Shown here piece after piece: positions 1 to 16,189 of a stretch of DNA of 64,000 nucleotides. The stretch lies in NCBI GenBank assembly GCA_025499625.1, contig JAFMVD010000005.1:62001-126000 (forward strand), in the 5' to 3' direction. The notes under the pieces are model-generated. The model was not told the origin of the DNA, searched no databases, and was given only the letters and a program-made list of their open reading frames with translations. Origin of the DNA: Carboxylicivirga fragile. Its GTDB lineage: Bacteria; Bacteroidota; Bacteroidia; Bacteroidales; Marinilabiliaceae. Each line of letters starts with the position of its first letter. Position 1 is the first letter of the stretch. Position numbers and translations under genes: made by a program.

Positions 1-241
1 AAGAAGATACTAATTCTGCGCGGCCATGTCCATAAGGGTGATTATTATCTGCAGGTTTAGCTGATAATTTTAAACCAATTAAAACAGCTACGGATGAGAT
101 ACTGTCGCTTAATGTATGCCAGGCATCAGCTATTATAGCGATTGAACCACTAACGATGCCAGCCCATAGTTTTATAGCAAATAAAGCAACATTAAGAATT
201 ATTGATACATAAGTTGCTAGTATACCAGTTTTGTTACTCAT
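1..241 (-). CDS. Cation diffusion facilitator (CDF) family transporter, N-terminal part
   Basis: The gene runs off the left edge, so only about 80 N-terminal residues are visible. They show a first membrane helix (ATYVSIILNVALFAIK), then a second segment with the CDF metal-site pattern around ADAWHTLSD, then HPYGHGRAE, the classic sequence after helix 2. These proteins export divalent metals (Zn, Fe, Mn, Cd) by proton antiport at the inner membrane; the metal cannot be told from this fragment. The ATG shares one base with the hemW stop (TAATG), so the two genes are probably translationally coupled in one minus-strand operon. Confidence 0.85.
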   Translation of the reverse strand, partial: MSNKTGILATYVSIILNVALFAIKLWAGIVSGSIAIIADAWHTLSDSISSVAVLIGLKLSAKPADNNHPYGHGRAELVSS

Positions 242-1371
242 TATTCATCAATATAGAAGAAATCTGATATTATACGATCGGTGATAAACCGTTTCGATTT
301 TGGAACCCGATAATACACATCATCTTTTTCAATGTTTCCTAGTTTAATTTGTTGAACTAATTCTTGTTCAAAAAAGCTTTTAATATCGTTATTAACACGC
401 TTAATAAAATCCGAATTAAATCCTTTTAAAGTACGTAAACCAAGCATTATCCGTTCATTGTATATATCTGTGTCGGATAAAAGCTCTTCGTCCCAATACT
501 TTTGTTTACCTTTTAGCTGTTCGTTATACTTTGATAAATGGCTAATATTCCACTTTCGCTTTTTCCCATCAAATGAATGAGCTGATGGGCCTAATCCTAA
601 ATACTTTTTACCCGTCCAATAATTACTATTGTGTTGAGATATTAGCTTACCATAGGCAAAATTTGATATCTCGTAATTACTGAATCCAGCTTCTTCAAGT
701 TTACTAACCAAGTATTCAAACTGTTGTTCACTATCTTCTTCATTAATTTCCGTCAGTTTGCCTTTTTTAAGTAAATCGTAGTAAGGTGTTCCTTTTTCAA
801 TGGTTAAATGATAAGCAGAAATATGCTCAACTTTTAAGTCTAAGGCCATTTTTACATTTTTTTTCCACTCATCAAATGTCATGTATGGCAAGCCATAAAT
901 CAGATCTATACTAATATTATTGATACCTGATTTTTTAGCGATTTCAACTGCATTAATGGCTTGTTTGGCATTATGGCGTCGATTCATTTTACGCAAATGC
1001 GCATCAAAAAAACTTTGAATACCCATGCTAAGGCGATTAACACCTAGTTCAATCAAACCTTGAATATATGCTTCAGATACATCATCGGGATTGACTTCCA
1101 TTGTAATCTCATCCAGTTCCGATAAATTTACGAAATCAGATAAACAATTAAATATACTTTGCAGTTCTTGTAAGGAAAGAACAGACGGAGTTCCTCCACC
1201 AAAATACAATGTGGATATTTGATTATCTTTAAAAAATGAAGCATTTAAGATAATTTCATCACAAATTGCTTCTAAAAAATCGCTTTTTAAAGTCTGATCT
1301 GTAGTTTTGTAAAAATCGCAATATGAACAACGCGAATAACAAAATGGAATATGTATGTAAATGCCCGCCAT
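241..1371 (-). CDS. hemW: HemW, radical SAM heme chaperone (coproporphyrinogen oxidase-like)
   Basis: This 376-residue protein starts with MAGIYIHIPF and carries the radical SAM cluster motif C11-x3-C15-x2-C18, followed by the glycine-rich FGGGTPS stretch and a HemN-like C-terminal part (GLGPSAHSF). HemW lacks the N-terminal extension of true oxygen-independent coproporphyrinogen oxidase HemN and delivers heme to respiratory enzymes; older annotations call it HemN. The length and the motif near residue 11 fit HemW. The start lies only 9 bp from a parS palindrome, so ParB loading would cover its 5' leader. A CDF transporter gene follows with a one-base overlap. Confidence 0.9.
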   Translation of the reverse strand: MAGIYIHIPFCYSRCSYCDFYKTTDQTLKSDFLEAICDEIILNASFFKDNQISTLYFGGGTPSVLSLQELQSIFNCLSDFVNLSELDEITMEVNPDDVSEAYIQGLIELGVNRLSMGIQSFFDAHLRKMNRRHNAKQAINAVEIAKKSGINNISIDLIYGLPYMTFDEWKKNVKMALDLKVEHISAYHLTIEKGTPYYDLLKKGKLTEINEEDSEQQFEYLVSKLEEAGFSNYEISNFAYGKLISQHNSNYWTGKKYLGLGPSAHSFDGKKRKWNISHLSKYNEQLKGKQKYWDEELLSDTDIYNERIMLGLRTLKGFNSDFIKRVNNDIKSFFEQELVQQIKLGNIEKDDVYYRVPKSKRFITDRIISDFFYIDE

Positions 1372-1380
1372 TACTGGAAT

Positions 1381-1396
1381 TGTTTCACGTGAAACA
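1381..1396. other. parS centromere site (perfect 16-bp palindrome)
   Basis: The sequence TGTTTCACGTGAAACA is a perfect palindrome identical to the widely conserved bacterial parS consensus bound by ParB/Spo0J. It lies in the 106-bp gap between divergent hemW and the vanZ-like gene. parS sites cluster around chromosomal origins in most bacteria. A second site follows at 14516 and a third near-match at 14743. Confidence 0.85.
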
Positions 1397-1411
1397 CTGT
1401 GTAGTAATGCT

Positions 1412-1464
1412 TTATTAACAGGTTTATCAACATTTTTTCAACAGTATTATATAGTTTATCAACA
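1412..1464 (+). repeat. Four phased TTATCAACA-like 9-mers (DnaA-box-like array)
   Basis: Four same-orientation 9-mers occur: TTATTAACA at 1412, TTATCAACA at 1424, TTTTCAACA at 1435 and TTATCAACA at 1456. The start spacings of 12, 11 and 21 bp are close to whole helical turns, so all would face the same side of the DNA. TTATCAACA differs from the DnaA box TTATCCACA at one base. The array starts 15 bp after the parS site. It may be part of an origin or a DnaA-regulated promoter region; a regulator of the flanking divergent genes is the alternative. Confidence 0.55.
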
Positions 1465-1477
1465 GTAAAAACCAAAA

Positions 1478-1894
1478 ATGGCAAGAATAATTAGATATCA
1501 TAAAACCCTATGCATTTTATTAGCTGTTACTATTTTAAGTTTAATGGATACCAGTAGAATTGAACCCGGTAATATAGTTACTATACCACATTTCGATAAA
1601 ATTGTTCATTTCATAATGTATTTCACCCTCGCTTTTACACTAATGTTTGAATATTATCTACATCACAAGTATAAAATAACTAAAGGAATACAAGTACTTA
1701 TCTTGCCTCTTATTTGGGGTGCAATAATGGAATTAGCTCAGCTATTATTAACAGATTATCGTGGAGCTGAATGGAAAGACATGCTTGCAAATACAGTCGG
1801 TATTATTTTAGCTTACTTCACTGTAAAACAGCTTAAAGACAATAGAATACTTGTTACATTAATACTGTTTCCATTTTTCAAAAAACCACTATAA
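1478..1894 (+). CDS. VanZ-like family membrane protein
   Basis: The protein has 138 residues with about four hydrophobic segments. It carries the VanZ-like signature: an early basic helix, DKIVHFIMYFTLAF near residues 40-53, and DMLANTVGIILAY near the end. VanZ itself gives low-level teicoplanin resistance, but most short VanZ-like proteins have no known role, so no resistance should be inferred. It is transcribed divergently from hemW across the parS/9-mer region, and its end overlaps the convergent Rrf2 gene by 6 bp. Confidence 0.75.
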   Translation: MARIIRYHKTLCILLAVTILSLMDTSRIEPGNIVTIPHFDKIVHFIMYFTLAFTLMFEYYLHHKYKITKGIQVLILPLIWGAIMELAQLLLTDYRGAEWKDMLANTVGIILAYFTVKQLKDNRILVTLILFPFFKKPL

Positions 1895-2332
1895 TTTTAT
1901 GTAGTGACTCTTATCTTCCATATTGGTCATAATTTTTGAAATTGACTCTGTTTTGAAAAATTCAGTCATTTGTTTTCGTATAGAGCTATACTGATCATGC
2001 ACCGGACAAGCATGTCCTTCTTGATTATTTGTTTTACAACTATGTAATCCAATCAAACAATTTGTAAATACATCTTCACCATCAATAATAGAAACAATAT
2101 CATACAAAGTAATATCCTCTGGTTTTTTTCCAATACTAAAACCACCATGTGGACCTTTAGTACTTTTTAAAAGCTTCTGTTTTGCTAAGCTTTGTAGTAT
2201 TTTACCCAAAAAAGGTGTTGGAATATCCAACTCTTTTGAAATGTGCTTTATGCCTATTCTCTTTCCTTCTTCTTCATTTACAGCTAGATAAATAACAGCT
2301 CTAATAGCGTACTTACAAGTATTTGATAACAT
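1889..2332 (-). CDS. Rrf2 family transcriptional regulator, probably Fe-S binding
   Basis: This 147-residue protein has the Rrf2 winged-helix pattern: YAIRAVIYLA at 8-17, a recognition segment around IPTPFLGKILQSLAK, and KGPHGGF in the wing. Three cysteines, C92, C99 and C109, sit where IscR and NsrR carry their cluster ligands, so a [2Fe-2S] or [4Fe-4S] sensor is plausible. No isc or suf genes are nearby, so the target is unknown. A terminator (2446-2481) separates it from rpiB upstream, so it is probably its own transcription unit. It could sense nitric oxide, iron-sulfur status or redox state. Confidence 0.85.
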   Translation of the reverse strand: MLSNTCKYAIRAVIYLAVNEEEGKRIGIKHISKELDIPTPFLGKILQSLAKQKLLKSTKGPHGGFSIGKKPEDITLYDIVSIIDGEDVFTNCLIGLHSCKTNNQEGHACPVHDQYSSIRKQMTEFFKTESISKIMTNMEDKSHYIKL

Positions 2333-2445
2333 CTTTCTATTGTTTGAAGGCTAAAATAAATAAAATCATTATAAAACCTTTAAGTCTTTTTATTCTTTCT
2401 TTATATAAGACTAAGTTTTTAACAACTCTTTAATACATCTAATAA

Positions 2446-2481
2446 CCAAAAAAGCTACTAAAATACAATTTCAGCAGCTTT
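2446..2481 (-). terminator. Intrinsic terminator downstream of rpiB
   Basis: On the minus strand AAAGCTGCT pairs with AGTAGCTTT (nine pairs, one G-U) across a 13-nt loop and is followed by a T tract. It lies 60 bp past the rpiB stop. Confidence 0.6.
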
Positions 2482-2540
2482 CCTTATACAATCCGTATTC
2501 CACATTTTTTAAAATAAGCAGATCTATAAAATAAATCCAA

Positions 2541-2978
2541 TTACACAGGAATTTTATCAATTCGAGCTTGATGACGACCACCCTCAAATAAAGTAGTTAC
2601 GAACTTTTCAACAATCTTAATAGCCTCTTCATTACTTACGTATCTACCAGGTATTGTGCAGATATTCGCGTTGTTATGAAGGCGTGCCATTTCACTAATT
2701 TCAACTGACCAACATAAAGCCGCTCTAATGCCTTGATGTTTATTAACAGACATATTAATACCATTTCCACTACCGCAAACAGCTATACCTATTTCATAGT
2801 CACCGTCTTCCACAGCAGAAGCCATCGGATGAGCGTAATCTGCATAATCTGTACTCTCTTCTGAGTGTGTTCCAAAATCCTTAACTTGAAAGTTATTTTT
2901 AATAAGGTATTCCTTTACTAATTCTTTTACTGGAAAACCAGCATGATCAGCAGCTAAAGCAATTGATTTAAAAATCAT
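2541..2978 (-). CDS. rpiB: Ribose-5-phosphate isomerase B
   Basis: The protein has 145 residues, the usual RpiB length. It interconverts ribose 5-phosphate and ribulose 5-phosphate in the non-oxidative pentose phosphate pathway. Visible family features are ADHAGF at 10-15, the catalytic cysteine C68 in AVCGSGNG, RAALCW, and HNNANI with the conserved histidine at 101. The C-terminal FEGGRHQARIDKI is typical. A clear TAnnTTTG promoter lies just upstream and a terminator follows, which indicates a single-gene unit. Confidence 0.93.
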   Translation of the reverse strand: MIFKSIALAADHAGFPVKELVKEYLIKNNFQVKDFGTHSEESTDYADYAHPMASAVEDGDYEIGIAVCGSGNGINMSVNKHQGIRAALCWSVEISEMARLHNNANICTIPGRYVSNEEAIKIVEKFVTTLFEGGRHQARIDKIPV

Positions 2979-2995
2979 TTGTTGTGTTTTTTTTG

Positions 2996-3029
2996 CAAAG
3001 ATAACAATGCATTTTATTGAAAATACAAA
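2996..3029 (-). promoter_or_regulatory. rpiB promoter, Bacteroidota type
   Basis: On the minus strand TATCTTTG (2996-3003) matches the -7 consensus TAnnTTTG, and TTTG (3026-3029) lies 22 nt upstream as the -33 element. Confidence 0.65.
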
Positions 3030-3319
3030 TTGTGAATAAAGCTCTTAAAAATTGTTTAAAACTTGTGTACAACGCCTCATTACTTTTTATAATTTATGAT
3101 TGATATTTTAAACTATTTTTACAATACAATGGAAGCTTCCAATAATACATGTTGATAGACGGTTTTTTTAAGGTCAATTTTTGAACAGTTTTAAACGTCA
3201 TTTTAAACACAAAGAATAGAAGAAATTATTAAATTTGGCCATTATTAACCAATTGTTAATATAATTCAAAAGTGAATTACTTTCAATTGATTAAGCTTTA
3301 TAAATACTGTTAATAAGTA

Positions 3320-3353
3320 GTTGATAGAGTATATTTATTCTTTAATAACTTTG
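3320..3353 (+). promoter_or_regulatory. nadA promoter, Bacteroidota type
   Basis: TAACTTTG (3346-3353) matches the -7 consensus, and GTTG (3320-3323) lies 22 nt upstream as a -33-like element. It predicts a leader of roughly 75 nt. Confidence 0.55.
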
Positions 3354-3359
3354 GATCAA

Positions 3360-3381
3360 AGTATTTTTCAATAAAAATACT
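3360..3381 (+). promoter_or_regulatory. Hairpin at the predicted 5' end of nadA mRNA
   Basis: AGTATTTTT and AAAAATACT form a perfect 9-bp stem with a CAAT loop, a few bases after the predicted -7 box. A 5' hairpin may stabilise the message or be part of a regulatory leader; it does not resemble a known NAD riboswitch. Confidence 0.4.
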
Positions 3382-3437
3382 AACCTTGCTAACAGGATAT
3401 TATCATTACTATATTTATTTATTATTTCTATCTCTAT

Positions 3438-4433
3438 ATGAATATAAAGAGTAGTTGGTTAAAAAGTGGATTTGTAGATGAGGCGATTCCAACTAGTGTA
3501 AATCTAAAAGAAGAGATAATTCGTTTGAAGAAGGAAAAGAACGCTATTATTATGGCGCATTTCTATCAGACTAACGAATTACAAGATATAGCCGATTTTG
3601 TTGGTGATAGTTTGGCATTAGCTCAAGAGGCTGCAAAAACCAAAGCTGATATTATTGTTTTAGCTGGGGTTCACTTCATGGGTGAAACGGCAAAAATTCT
3701 TTCGCCTGATAAACTAGTGTTAGTACCCGATTTAAATGCCGGATGTAGTTTGGCCGACAGTTGTCCGCCCGAAGCTTTTAAAAGCTTTGTTGATAATAAT
3801 CCTGATCATACTGTTTTAACCTATGTAAATACAACGGCAAAAATTAAAGCTTTATCTGATATTGTTGTTACAAGTACCAATGCTAAAACAATAGTTGATA
3901 GTTTGCCAATGGATGAGAAAATCATATTTGGTCCTGATCGTAACCTTGGTAACTACTTAAACAGTGTAACTGGTAGAGATATGTTGTTATGGGATGGTGC
4001 TTGTCATGTACACGAAAAATTCTCGGTTGAAAAAATAATTGAGTTAAAAAAGGAATATCCTGAAGCAATAATATTAGCACATCCTGAGTGCAAACAGCCA
4101 CTTTTGGTATTGGCGAATTATGTTGGTAGTACAGCTGCATTATTAAAGTATTCTACAAATAGTGATGCAAATGATTTCATTGTGGCTACCGAATCAGGTA
4201 TTATTCATCAAATGAAAAAATCAAGCCCTAATAAGAATTTTATTCCTGCTCCACCTAATGATTCTACATGTGCATGTAATGATTGTGAGTACATGAAGTT
4301 AAATACCATGGAAAAGTTATATAATTGTTTAAAATTTGAGTGGCCTAATATCGACGTAATAGAAGAGATTCGAAAAGATGCGGTAAAACCCATAAATCGA
4401 ATGTTGGATATTTCTGCCAGTAAAGGTTTATAA
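3438..4433 (+). CDS. nadA: Quinolinate synthase NadA
   Basis: The protein has 331 residues. It condenses iminoaspartate with dihydroxyacetone phosphate to quinolinate in de novo NAD synthesis, using a [4Fe-4S] cluster. Likely ligands are C103 (GCSLAD), C189 (DGACHVHEKF) and C283 (CEYM), which matches the spacing in known NadA proteins. Other family marks are MAHFYQ near 39-44 and VGDSLALA. Its partner nadB lies about 48 kb away at 52688, and nadC is not in the window. The gene starts the long plus-strand run that continues to uvrC. Confidence 0.95.
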   Translation: MNIKSSWLKSGFVDEAIPTSVNLKEEIIRLKKEKNAIIMAHFYQTNELQDIADFVGDSLALAQEAAKTKADIIVLAGVHFMGETAKILSPDKLVLVPDLNAGCSLADSCPPEAFKSFVDNNPDHTVLTYVNTTAKIKALSDIVVTSTNAKTIVDSLPMDEKIIFGPDRNLGNYLNSVTGRDMLLWDGACHVHEKFSVEKIIELKKEYPEAIILAHPECKQPLLVLANYVGSTAALLKYSTNSDANDFIVATESGIIHQMKKSSPNKNFIPAPPNDSTCACNDCEYMKLNTMEKLYNCLKFEWPNIDVIEEIRKDAVKPINRMLDISASKGL

Positions 4434-4456
4434 TTAAGGAATTAGCTAATTTGTAA

Positions 4457-4846
4457 ATGGAAAAATTGGAGTATTCTCTTTCTATCTTGCTAGTTGAAGA
4501 TAATGTTTTAAATCAGAAACTTATCTATTTAAATCTGTGTAAATATGGATTTAAGATAGACATTGCTAACAATGGTCAGGAAGCTTTAGATAAGTTAAAA
4601 ATAGGTGTTTATGATCTAATTTTAATGGATTTAATGATGCCAGTAATGGATGGTCTTGAAACAACTGTTGCCATTCGAAATAATGAGCTTACTACAAAGG
4701 AACATATGCCTATAGTTGGTTTAACTGCAAATACATATGATGCTGATCGGGAAAAATGTTTAGCTCATGGTATGGATGAATACATGGCTAAACCATTTGA
4801 TTTACAGGAGTTTTTCAATAATTTAAAAAAATTGCAGTTAATCTAA
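4457..4846 (+). CDS. Stand-alone response regulator receiver domain protein
   Basis: This 129-residue CheY-like protein has only a receiver domain. The acidic pocket E14/D15, phospho-acceptor D58 (in LILMDLMMPVMDG), T90 and K112 are all present, so it should be phosphorylatable. There is no output domain and no histidine kinase nearby. The sequence style (VEDNVLNQKL, LTANTYDADREKCLAHGMDEYMAKPF) resembles receivers attached to hybrid kinases. It follows nadA by 23 bp and precedes ruvB by 9 bp, so it is probably co-transcribed. Its partner is unknown; the chemoreceptor at 42.5 kb is one distant possibility. Confidence 0.9.
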   Translation: MEKLEYSLSILLVEDNVLNQKLIYLNLCKYGFKIDIANNGQEALDKLKIGVYDLILMDLMMPVMDGLETTVAIRNNELTTKEHMPIVGLTANTYDADREKCLAHGMDEYMAKPFDLQEFFNNLKKLQLI

Positions 4847-4855
4847 ATAAGGTTT

Positions 4856-5869
4856 ATGGATTTTGATATTCGGGGTAATGAGGGAGAAGAATTTGATGTT
4901 GAAAAACAATTAAGGCCTTTAAAATTTGATGATTTTAAAGGGCAGGATAAAGTAGTTGAAAACCTCGAAATATTTGTAAAAGCTGCAACCATGAGGGGTG
5001 ATGCCCTTGATCATGTTTTACTACATGGTCCTCCTGGTTTGGGTAAAACCACCTTATCAAATATAATTGCTCATCAGCTAAATGTTGGGTTTAAATTAAG
5101 TAGTGGACCCGTTTTGGATAAACCTGGTGATTTAGCTGGTATTTTAACAAGTTTAGAGGAGAATGACGTACTATTTATAGATGAAATACATCGTTTAAGT
5201 CCAGTTGTTGAAGAGTATTTATATAGTGCAATGGAGGACTTTAAAATCGATATAGTCATTGATAAAGGCCCGGGTGCACGAAGTATTCAATTGGATCTTA
5301 ATCCGTTTACACTCATTGGAGCCACTACACGTAGTGGATTATTAACCGCTCCGTTGCGAGCTCGTTTTGGTATTAATTGTCATCTCGAATATTATAATAC
5401 TGATACAATTGCAGGTATAATTGAAAGATCTGCAGATATTCTCAAGGTAAGAATCCACGAAAATGCGTCTATTGAAATTGCCAGAAGAAGCCGTGGTACA
5501 CCACGAATAGCAAATGCTTTACTACGTCGTGTTCGTGATTTCGCCCAAGTAAAAGGCAATGGTACCATCGATCTTGAAATTAGTAAGATTGCATTAAATG
5601 CCTTAAACATTGATCAACATGGCTTGGATATTATGGATCATAAGATCCTGATAACATTAATTGATAAATTTGGTGGAGGTCCTGTTGGTGTAAATACTAT
5701 AGCAACAGCTGTAGGTGAAGATGCTGGTACTATTGAAGAAGTGTATGAACCCTTTTTGATTATGGAAGGATTTCTTAATCGTACTCCGAGAGGGCGAATG
5801 GCTACAGCATCGGCGTATGAACATCTTGGTAAAGAAAATACCTTAAATCAAGGTTCACTTTTTAGTTAA
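4856..5869 (+). CDS. ruvB: Holliday junction branch migration helicase RuvB
   Basis: The protein has 337 residues, a normal RuvB length. The AAA+ ATPase drives branch migration with RuvA during recombination repair. Walker A GPPGLGKT lies at 58-65 and Walker B VLFIDEIH at 105-112; sensor and arginine-finger segments GATTRSG and LRARFG follow, and then the winged-helix C-terminus with [17 protein letters not shown]. ruvA and ruvC are not adjacent. The flippase gene begins 5 bp after the stop, which points to shared transcription. Confidence 0.97.
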
Positions 5870-14515: not shown

Positions 14516-14531
14516 TGTTTCACGTGGAACA
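14516..14531. other. parS site between mnmG and ade
   Basis: TGTTTCACGTGGAACA matches the parS consensus TGTTNCACGTGAAACA with one change, which is itself seen in natural sites. It begins at the base after the mnmG stop and fills half of the 30-bp gap. Confidence 0.8.
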
Positions 14532-14545
14532 AATTATATAAATTT

Positions 14546-16189
14546 ATGACTATATCAGGGAATATTGTAGATGTTGTTAATAGAAGAATATTTGGTGGAA
14601 TTATTCATTTGAAAGATGGCAGAATTCAATCTATTATAACTTCAACTGATAAATTTCAAAATTATATTCTGCCTGGTTTGATCGATTCGCATGTACATAT
14701 CGAAAGTAGTATGTTGGTGCCATCCCGATTTGCCCATATGGTTGTTCCACGTGGAACGGTTGCTGTTGTTTCCGATCCTCATGAAATAGCTAATGTATTA
14801 GGTAGAGACGGTGTAGAATATATGATTAAGGATGGTGCGCGAGTACCATTAAAATGTTTTTTTGGAGTTCCTTCCTGTGTACCGGCAACCAGTTTTGAAT
14901 CTGCTGGAGGTAAAATTGACAGTGCTGATATAGAATATTTATTCTCACGTGGAGCTAATTTTTTAGCAGAAATGATGAATTTTCCAGGTGTTATTTATGG
15001 AGATTCAGAAGTAAAAAAGAAATTAGATATTGCTAAAAAATACAATAAACGCATAGATGGACATGCACCTGGTTTAAGTGGAGATGATTTAATTAAATAT
15101 GCTCAGGCTGGAATAAGTACAGATCATGAATGTTCTACCATAGAAGAAGCGATACAGAAGATTAAGTTGGGTATGCTTGTTCAAATACGAGAGGGGAGTG
15201 CGGCTCGAAATTTTGATGCTTTACATGAATTAATTCGAAGTCATCCTGATAAAGTAATGTTGTGTACCGACGATAGTCATCCGGATTTAATAAAAACTAA
15301 AGGGCATATTGATAGATTAATTCGTCTAGGTTTGAGCAAGGGTTATGATATTTTTGAATTATATCAAACTGCACTTATTAATCCAGTCTCACATTATGAT
15401 TTGCCTGTTGGTATGTTACGTGTAGATGATCCTGCTGATTTTATTGTAGTTGATAATTTGCAAGATTTTAATGTAAAGCAAACATATATTAATGGTATAA
15501 AGGCAGCTGAAAATGGCACTGCTCTATTTGATTTAATGCCTGTTGATACCGTTAATAATTTTGATTGTAATAATATTTCAGCTTCAGATTTATCAATTAT
15601 TGCTCCATATGATCATCCAGTTGTTCGTGTAATTGAATGTGAAGATGGAGAATTATTAACGAATGAATTTATTTGGCATCCAAATATTAAGAAGGGTAGT
15701 GAAGTAACATCAGATATCAATGCAGATATTCTAAAGATAGTTGTAATTAACAGGTATGAAAAAGCGCCAGTTTCAGTTGGCTTTATTAAAAACTTTGGTT
15801 TACAACAAGGAGCATTGGCTAGTTCTGTTGCTCACGATAGTCATAATATAGTCGCAGTTGGTTGTGATGATGAGTCGTTGGTTAATGTCGTTAATGGTAT
15901 TATTGGATCGAAAGGAGGGATTGCTGCTTATAATGATGGACTGTCTATCCAAGTTGATTTGCCTGTTGCAGGCATCATGTCTGATCAAACAGGAGATGTG
16001 ATCAGTGAGAAGTATACACAATTAAATGAATTTGTAACAGAACTTGGTGTAAATATGAATGCGCCTTTCATGACACTTGCCTTTATGTCTTTATTGGTAA
16101 TTCCTAATTTAAAGATTGGAGACAAAGGATTATTTGATGTAAGCACCTTCCAATTTACTGATCTGTTTATGCCTAATGAAACAATCTAA
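14546..16189 (+). CDS. ade: Adenine deaminase
   Basis: The protein has 547 residues. It deaminates adenine to hypoxanthine for purine salvage. It belongs to the amidohydrolase superfamily: the metal-binding HVH lies at 49-51 (LIDSHVHIESS), with VVPRGT (66-71), AVVSDPHE, an HAPGLSG segment and CTDDSHPD further on. The C-terminal domain (GIIGSKGGIAAYNDG) is typical of bacterial Ade. A parS-like sequence lies within codons 66-71. The 3' end overlaps uvrC by 14 bp. In Bacteroides, as I recall, this slot between mnmG and uvrC holds apt, so adenine salvage here may take a different route. Confidence 0.93.
   Translation: MTISGNIVDVVNRRIFGGIIHLKDGRIQSIITSTDKFQNYILPGLIDSHVHIESSMLVPSRFAHMVVPRGTVAVVSDPHEIANVLGRDGVEYMIKDGARVPLKCFFGVPSCVPATSFESAGGKIDSADIEYLFSRGANFLAEMMNFPGVIYGDSEVKKKLDIAKKYNKRIDGHAPGLSGDDLIKYAQAGISTDHECSTIEEAIQKIKLGMLVQIREGSAARNFDALHELIRSHPDKVMLCTDDSHPDLIKTKGHIDRLIRLGLSKGYDIFELYQTALINPVSHYDLPVGMLRVDDPADFIVVDNLQDFNVKQTYINGIKAAENGTALFDLMPVDTVNNFDCNNISASDLSIIAPYDHPVVRVIECEDGELLTNEFIWHPNIKKGSEVTSDINADILKIVVINRYEKAPVSVGFIKNFGLQQGALASSVAHDSHNIVAVGCDDESLVNVVNGIIGSKGGIAAYNDGLSIQVDLPVAGIMSDQTGDVISEKYTQLNEFVTELGVNMNAPFMTLAFMSLLVIPNLKIGDKGLFDVSTFQFTDLFMPNETI
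14743..14758. other. parS-like site inside ade
   Basis: TGTTCCACGTGGAACG contains the perfect 14-bp palindrome GTTCCACGTGGAAC; only the last base departs from a full 16-bp parS. It spans codons 66-71 (V-P-R-G-T), which are conserved in adenine deaminases, so it may be partly coincidental. It lies 212 bp from an intergenic parS site. Confidence 0.6.

Follow-up and report, generated by a model that had tools for sequence, protein, structure and literature searches.

The 106-bp gap (1372-1477) between hemW and the gene for a VanZ-like protein in Carboxylicivirga fragile holds a perfect parS, the predicted ParB-binding centromere site, together with all four 9-mers of a DnaA-box-like array. Positions are those of the window, the whole 64,000-nucleotide stretch of DNA that was analysed, which spans 62001-126000 of the 146-kb contig C96 in a 5.6-Mb genome assembled into 140 contigs. 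The VanZ-like gene product gave no NCBIfam match at E-values up to 1e-10, and a search for known structured RNAs in window positions 1-5000 gave no Rfam match at E-values up to 1. The features of the locus, and the second parS of the origin region, are the following:

241-1371, minus strand: hemW, flanking gene (TIGR00539, above cut-off)
1381-1396, no strand given: perfect parS (predicted ParB-binding centromere site), TGTTTCACGTGAAACA, read directly from the sequence
1412-1420, plus strand: box 1, DnaA-box-like 9-mer TTATTAACA (column identity 0.912)
1424-1432, plus strand: box 2, DnaA-box-like 9-mer TTATCAACA (column identity 0.968)
1435-1443, plus strand: box 3, DnaA-box-like 9-mer TTTTCAACA (column identity 0.952)
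1456-1464, plus strand: box 4, DnaA-box-like 9-mer TTATCAACA (column identity 0.900)
1478-1894, plus strand: gene for a VanZ-like protein, flanking gene (PF04892, above cut-off)
1889-2332, minus strand: gene for an Rrf2-family regulator, between the box array and the oriC candidate
14516-14531: second origin-region parS, TGTTTCACGTGGAACA, directly after mnmG

The E. coli DnaA box consensus is TTATCCACA and that of parS is the 16-bp palindrome TGTTTCACGTGAAACA, which the site at 1381 matches exactly. The neighbouring 9-mers have the properties of a DnaA-box cluster, being several, phased, non-random, conserved and close to TTATCCACA, with both TTATCAACA boxes (2 and 4) one base away from it; their starts lie 12, 11 and 21 bp apart, or about one, one and two helical turns. 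Direct reading agrees with the first-pass annotation of this DNA, which had reported a perfect parS at 1381 and four same-strand 9-mers at 1412, 1424, 1435 and 1456, spaced by about whole helical turns and including two that differ from the DnaA box by a single base. The second parS lies 13.1 kb away on the same contig, and these two are the only sites in the whole genome with at most one mismatch to the hemW/vanZ parS. When up to three mismatches are allowed, the window contains five parS-like sites against 0.43 expected, a single one of them perfect. A weaker parS-like site, TGTTCCACGTGGAACG, is found at 14743-14758 within the gene after mnmG, 227 bp from the second parS.

Single boxes are weak evidence because 9-mers one mismatch from TTATCAACA are common in the AT-rich window (69 vs 38 expected); the weight of the evidence lies in the clustering of the boxes and its conservation, with little coming from single boxes. 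The tight pair TTWTNAACA-NN-TTWTNAACA has one match in the 5.6-Mb genome, at the array (the reversed control pattern also has one), and 12 of 13 same-genus relatives have it at the corresponding locus; the remaining one, G004, has its sole match elsewhere. Across these 14 genomes, 15 of 19 matches fall at the array, with three matches for the reversed control, and eight genomes of other families gave five matches in five genomes vs two for the control. The strict pair TTATYAACA-N(1-28)-TTATYAACA has two overlapping matches in the C. fragile genome, both in the array (reversed control, one), and strict pairs outside the array were found in the relatives G002 (3 of 4 matches), G006 (2 of 4) and G003 (3 of 3), with none in G021. 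By our own arithmetic, the chance of a genome-unique motif falling within 100 bp of either parS is about 7e-5. This figure, the genome-unique tight pair (with its single control match) and the conservation described below bear out the annotation's view that finding both motifs together is unlikely by chance.

Conservation and distribution of the composite

The family set comprised 36 Marinilabiliaceae genomes (that of C. fragile, 13 of the same genus and 22 of the same family), and in 31 of them hemW has next to it a parS with no more than one mismatch. This count comes from 33 loci (32 plus the window), after dropping L108, which is the mnmG parS of G019, and L113 of G018, which has no hemW match. 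The vanZ gene was found past parS in 30 of the 31 loci, and in the remaining one (L103) the contig stops before it. In the 90 bp beyond parS, away from hemW, the 31 loci hold 77 forward and two reverse TTWTNAACA boxes, against a mean of 2.7 and a maximum of eight in 1000 runs of first-order Markov controls for the same stretches; the hemW side of parS has no forward and one reverse box. At least one box is present in 29 of the loci, at least two in 28 and at least three in 17, and among the 14 same-genus genomes all have at least two and 12 have at least three. The 9-mers singled out in the first-pass annotation are thus kept in close relatives. In all 29 loci with a strict box, the first one begins 15-28 bp beyond parS, and all 28 relatives in which nadA could be placed have it on the box side of parS. 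With near-boxes counted too, the first steps from box to box are mostly 11 bp and the last step is 21 or 22 bp in 12 of 14 same-genus genomes; outside the genus, steps counted in the same way are 10-12, 15, 21-22, 32-33 and 43 bp.

Among the 14 same-genus genomes, parS has a mean pairwise column identity of 0.991 and the boxes have one of 0.933, compared with 0.511 in the 52 remaining columns of the gap. None of 10,000 permutations reached the difference between boxes and other gap columns, and the four-fold sites of nadA, used as a neutral yardstick, have an identity of 0.425. The boxes are under purifying selection. In a wider scan of 71 family genomes, 32 had parS followed by a box no more than 45 bp away, against 0 of 71 for the reversed control; the former is an undercount because the scan used essentially one parS spelling. 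The array is nevertheless not universal in Marinilabiliaceae. The hemW/vanZ gap has shrunk to about 20 bp in G023, a degenerate parS (TGTTTCAAATGAAACC) and two widely spaced strict boxes are left in G032, and G031 retains only a near-box. Two further loci (L110 and L111) have parS without a strict box and another (L102) has parS with one, while the upstream DNA of G029, which gave weak hemW matches only, and of G018, whose hemW fell below the identity cut, lay outside the comparison. Relatives, for example G008 (L035) and G007 (L036), often have either a short CACTG...CAGTG inverted repeat or an AAAACAG motif between parS and box 1.

These comparisons leave essentially no room for the array being a chance or low-complexity artefact of AT-rich DNA. 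Such a reading could draw on the excess of one-mismatch TTATCAACA sites across the window, but it is refuted by the conservation in the 14 same-genus genomes and contradicted by the genome-unique tight pair, by the forward boxes of the 31 loci and by the family scan set against its reversed control.

The parS and array composite is mainly found in Marinilabiliaceae. When 84,980 species genomes were scanned for exact matches to parS with two boxes after it, 23 stretches came up, 19 assigned to this family and four from elsewhere. We sought hemW in 20 genomes of other families, two of which (G041 and G049) yielded no usable locus; among the 18 with readable DNA upstream of hemW (up to 260 bp), none has parS with the array, and G037 has one 9-mer. 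A parS with at most one mismatch is present in 13 of 24 genomes of other families, and eight of the ten such loci examined lie at mnmG (the matches of G037, G043 and G055 are outside these ten).

In G045 and G057, both from other families, hemW adjoins a vanZ-like gene without parS or the array, which speaks against a role of the array in transcription of hemW, the VanZ-like gene or both, whether under DnaA or under an unrelated regulator that reads the same 9-mer. The 106-bp gap must contain the promoters of both genes, the boxes sit where these should be and 13 bp separate the end of box 4 from the start of vanZ. The array nonetheless co-occurs with parS, and the same 9-mer type marks the oriC candidate described below; we consider a transcriptional role highly improbable.

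Related mixtures of sites were seen in other lineages. In a Lachnospiraceae MAG, from a different phylum, three parS (at 54, 168 and 378 of L122) lie with TTATTAACA/TTATCAACA-type 9-mers in a stretch (54-391) directly upstream of genes that read as parA- and parB-like from their frames. In a Clostridia MAG (L136, 2776-3026), two parS (2777 and 3012), the first followed by TTATCAACA, TTATTAACA and an opposed box, occupy an intergenic, AT-rich stretch that precedes a ParA-like gene by about 3 kb and is possibly the origin of that organism. A Prevotellaceae MAG (L120, 2876-2934) has parS right after mnmG and then two TTAT-NAACA 9-mers, one of which overlaps the start codon of the next gene; this may be chance. 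In a Robiginitomaculum MAG (L121, 3570-3633), a perfect parS is followed by TTTTAAACA/TTATAAACA repeats beside genes that read as repressor-like and integrase-like from their frames, possibly a mobile element with parS and a replication-like site.

The replication origin region and an oriC candidate

The cumulative GC skew of contig C96 has its minimum at window position 3148. The C. fragile assembly is too fragmented for a whole-chromosome skew, and two near-complete relatives (G002 and G021) were sampled instead. On the 6.27-Mb contig of G002 (20 sampled 20-kb stretches), skew is negative in 7 of 7 samples before parS, positive in 7 of 8 from parS to 3.4 Mb and negative in 5 of 5 beyond; on the 4.1-Mb contig of G021, it is negative in 9 of 10 samples before parS and positive in 8 of 9 after it, the last sample (4.05 Mb) being negative. 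Given this sign change at the locus in both relatives, the hemW/vanZ locus is at the replication origin, and the skew minimum that the first-pass annotation had proposed looking for here was found in the C. fragile contig and in the sampled G002 and G021. The minimum lies 1.77 kb away from the hemW/vanZ locus in the C. fragile contig, 1.57 kb in G002 and 3.4 kb in G021. A 60-kb stretch of G021 has a second skew dip about 29 kb further on, nearly as deep.

The dnaA gene lies away from the locus, on contig C59 in C. fragile and at 5.149 Mb in G002 (parS is at 1.363 Mb, about 2.5 Mb away by the shorter way round). An origin linked to dnaA elsewhere had been named in the annotation as a reason to doubt its proposal; dnaA is indeed far off, which we do not count against an origin here because Bacteroidetes origins are reported commonly to lie far from dnaA (PMC4755523).

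About 1.5 kb from the array, the gap between rpiB and nadA contains the local skew minimum in the C. fragile contig and in G002, and touches the minimum in G021. Its features are the following:

2541-2978, minus strand: rpiB, left flank of the oriC candidate
2979-3437 (459 bp), no strand given: oriC candidate, the AT-rich gap between rpiB and nadA, where the cumulative GC skew of the contig is lowest
3031-3039, minus strand: DnaA-box-like site of the oriC candidate (13 of 15 genomes)
3150-3158, minus strand: DnaA-box-like site of the oriC candidate (10 of 15 genomes)
3242-3250, plus strand: DnaA-box-like site of the oriC candidate (14 of 15 genomes)
3308-3316, minus strand: DnaA-box-like site TTATTAACA of the oriC candidate (15 of 15 genomes)
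3330-3429, no strand given: probable unwinding region, ranking third for instability among separate 100-bp stretches of the 146-kb contig
3438-4433, plus strand: nadA, right flank of the oriC candidate

Among 300-bp stretches of the 146-kb contig, the least stable is 3164-3463, which overlaps this gap; the gap ranks second in the contig at 450 bp and third at 50 and 100 bp. Under 0.1% of contig windows are less stable than the rpiB-nadA gap, compared with 1.3 to 8% for the best of the hemW-vanZ gap. In 15 genomes (the 14 of the genus and G022 from another genus), the rpiB-nadA gap has 82 9-mers that differ from TTATCAACA or TTATTAACA by at most one base, where 21.9 would be expected (sd 4.6 and maximum 35 among 200 controls), and these recur at fixed places, the four sites listed above. 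The length of the gap between alignment ends is nearly constant in the genus, at 457-464 bp in 13 of the 14 genomes, with 591 bp in G007. We take this gap as oriC because it combines the skew minimum, the lowest stability and enriched, conserved DnaA boxes; the origin core is thus probably the rpiB-nadA gap, with the array as a separate module. The hemW-vanZ gap was also considered as the core and is less likely, lying off the skew minimum and being of unremarkable stability, with a second conserved box set present at rpiB-nadA. The annotation's proposal of a combined segregation and replication-control site is supported, in the origin region; its strict form, in which the 84-bp patch is itself oriC, is not supported, given where the skew minimum, the least stable 300 bp and the second box set lie. 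The patch may yet serve as a distal origin arm.

As such an arm, the array would belong to a bipartite oriC and loop to the rpiB-nadA gap to aid unwinding, with parS merely nearby. This is nearly as good a fit on sequence alone: two conserved DnaA-box clusters lie at the skew minimum with genes between them, and the bipartite origins of B. subtilis and H. pylori have DnaA-box clusters on either side of dnaA that are looped together (PMC8235120). We nonetheless regard it as possible but doubtful. The clusters here do not flank dnaA, the parS-nadA distance in relatives varies from about 0.95 to 3.5 kb as intervening genes come and go, and looping would not need the first strict box to stay within 15-28 bp of parS, as it does in 29 of 29 loci. 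In one case, G032, parS and the array have partly decayed and the oriC candidate keeps five box-like sites and the conserved AT-rich end; this speaks less clearly against a bipartite oriC because two boxes remain beside the decayed parS. If the bipartite reading were true, box loss would lead to an initiation defect and not to a segregation defect.

Four-fold-site GC skew, which was tried as a means of choosing between the two gaps, is confounded by coding strand. The pooled four-fold AT skew of vanZ is +0.069 in the 15-genome genus set including G022 and +0.131 in 15 other family genomes, which places vanZ on the left-replichore side; the value for the C. fragile vanZ (-0.095) is not decisive, since 10 of 34 right-hand plus-strand genes are equal or higher. 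A DnaA-trio was considered at the right end of the rpiB-nadA gap and rejected, the period-3 AT run ATTATCATTACTATA being largely conserved with a partial trio fit in some genomes. Within the oriC candidate, conservation is highest over the 20 bp at 3219-3238, GAAGAAATTATTAAATTTGG (mean column identity 0.98 in 14 genomes), which include TAAATTTG, a sequence that we take to resemble the Bacteroidota -7 promoter element; given this motif, transcription may start within the origin. About 3.5 kb to the left of the window, C96:58009-58458 is AT-rich and very unstable, roughly on a par with the oriC candidate. In the open-licence literature, we found no paper on a Marinilabiliaceae replication origin, and the rpiB-nadA gap now gives a concrete oriC candidate for the family.

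Partition and initiator proteins and the proposed coupling

The ParA-like and ParB genes of C. fragile are adjacent on contig C66, away from the locus, and ParB of G002 is encoded at 1.069 Mb. ParB scores above the TIGR00180 cut-off and the neighbouring ParA-like gene scores below NCBIfam cut-offs. The best NCBIfam score of ParB is with the Noc model, below that model's cut-off, and its best solved relatives by alignment are ParB proteins, which bind parS, followed by Noc proteins. At four positions that we take to separate readers of parS from readers of the Noc site, this protein has R (KRST) and G (MGHARA), which are ParB-like, a Noc-like K and a Y that is neither. DnaA is complete and keeps the DNA-reading helix of domain IV, with DHAT where its best solved relative 8btg_A, presumably B. 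subtilis DnaA, has DHTT. In E. coli DnaA, the residues in contact with the DnaA box include 432-435 (PMC5043019). The DHAT helix would fit, without proving, a preference of DnaA for TTAT(C/T)AACA. In G021, which is rated 99% complete, no dnaA was found by Pfam model or protein search; its weak Pfam matches (best 2e-6) are probably IstB-like helper ATPases, and the gene is probably missing because of a gap in the assembly or a masked stretch.

The locus, then, is a composite of parS and regularly spaced, conserved boxes at the GC-skew minimum, in a genome whose ParA-like, ParB and DnaA genes lie elsewhere. We lean towards explaining it as an origin-proximal parS with a built-in platform for DnaA oligomerisation, about 1.5 kb from the core origin, that would couple replication to segregation. 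The array 9-mers are presumably tied to DnaA because the oriC candidate is enriched in 9-mers of this type and conserves them. ParB would load at parS, and DnaA would bind the four same-direction boxes on one helix face to form a short cooperative filament, which would start 15-28 bp from the ParB loading site, between parS and oriC. Because the filament would adjoin that loading site, active DnaA rising before initiation could act on the partition complex as well as on oriC, and the signal that fires replication would also license or orient segregation of the origin region.

A cluster of boxes on one strand, close to the origin and at a site doubled early after initiation, would also suit a DnaA reservoir or an activity-control site near oriC, acting by titration or in a datA- or DARS-like manner. 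With only four boxes present, and with the fixed union with parS left unexplained by it, we rate such a function as very unlikely. An elaboration of the coupled centromere that we think unlikely, though conceivable, treats the array as a gate, operated by DnaA, that stands between oriC and the site of ParB loading. Since the array is on the oriC-facing side of parS, a DnaA filament there would block ParB clamps sliding toward the origin, or would be stripped by them; the level of initiator would set the direction of ParB spreading, and ParB occupancy would feed back on initiation. If a gate does operate here, a single 84-bp switch joining both processes would have evolved in one Bacteroidota family independently of Caulobacter.

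How bacteria time origin segregation relative to initiation is an open question. The hemW/vanZ locus is a compact parS/DnaA-box version repeated across a family distant from Caulobacter, with relatives that keep, have partly lost or lack the array, and named strains in culture collections make the link between DnaA and the centromere testable. A search of the open-licence literature found no paper on the parS/DnaA-box composite of Marinilabiliaceae, with Carboxylicivirga and Alkaliflexus unmentioned among the matches listed.

Comparison with known systems

The origin region resembles the oriC of Bacteroidetes such as Prevotella intermedia in lying far from dnaA, at a GC-skew shift and with several DnaA boxes; the excerpted part of that account mentions no parS-DnaA composite (PMC4755523). 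The bipartite oriC of B. subtilis and H. pylori likewise has two DnaA-box clusters with coding sequence between them (PMC8235120). As described there, those clusters flank dnaA, whereas here they flank the VanZ-like gene, rrf2 and rpiB at a variable distance, and one of them carries parS. In Vibrio cholerae chromosome II, parS2 lies among RctB sites at rctA, beside the origin, and the present locus is similar in having parS among initiator sites, predicted ones here, close to the origin. That chromosome has RctB as its initiator in place of DnaA, and its regulatory locus rctA is described as more complex (PMC6399470).

At the hemW/vanZ locus, DnaA-box-like sites are found at parS, near the origin, which is the Caulobacter-type arrangement. 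A parS with DnaA boxes was reportedly described in Caulobacter crescentus by Mera et al. in 2014. There, DnaA binds parS and can start parS movement without replication, the case of DnaA action at parS that we found in print, by way of a review (PMC6399470). The present locus differs from that of Caulobacter, as far as the review's excerpt describes the latter, in being more elaborate, with up to four same-direction boxes at a pitch of about 11, 11 and 21 bp that begin 15-28 bp from parS, and in belonging to a different phylum in which dnaA and parAB lie far from the origin. It is like C. crescentus in placing initiator sites, predicted here, at a centromere locus that is linked to the origin; one DnaA binding activity serves both ori and parS in Caulobacter, and the same would hold in C. 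fragile under the coupling proposed here.
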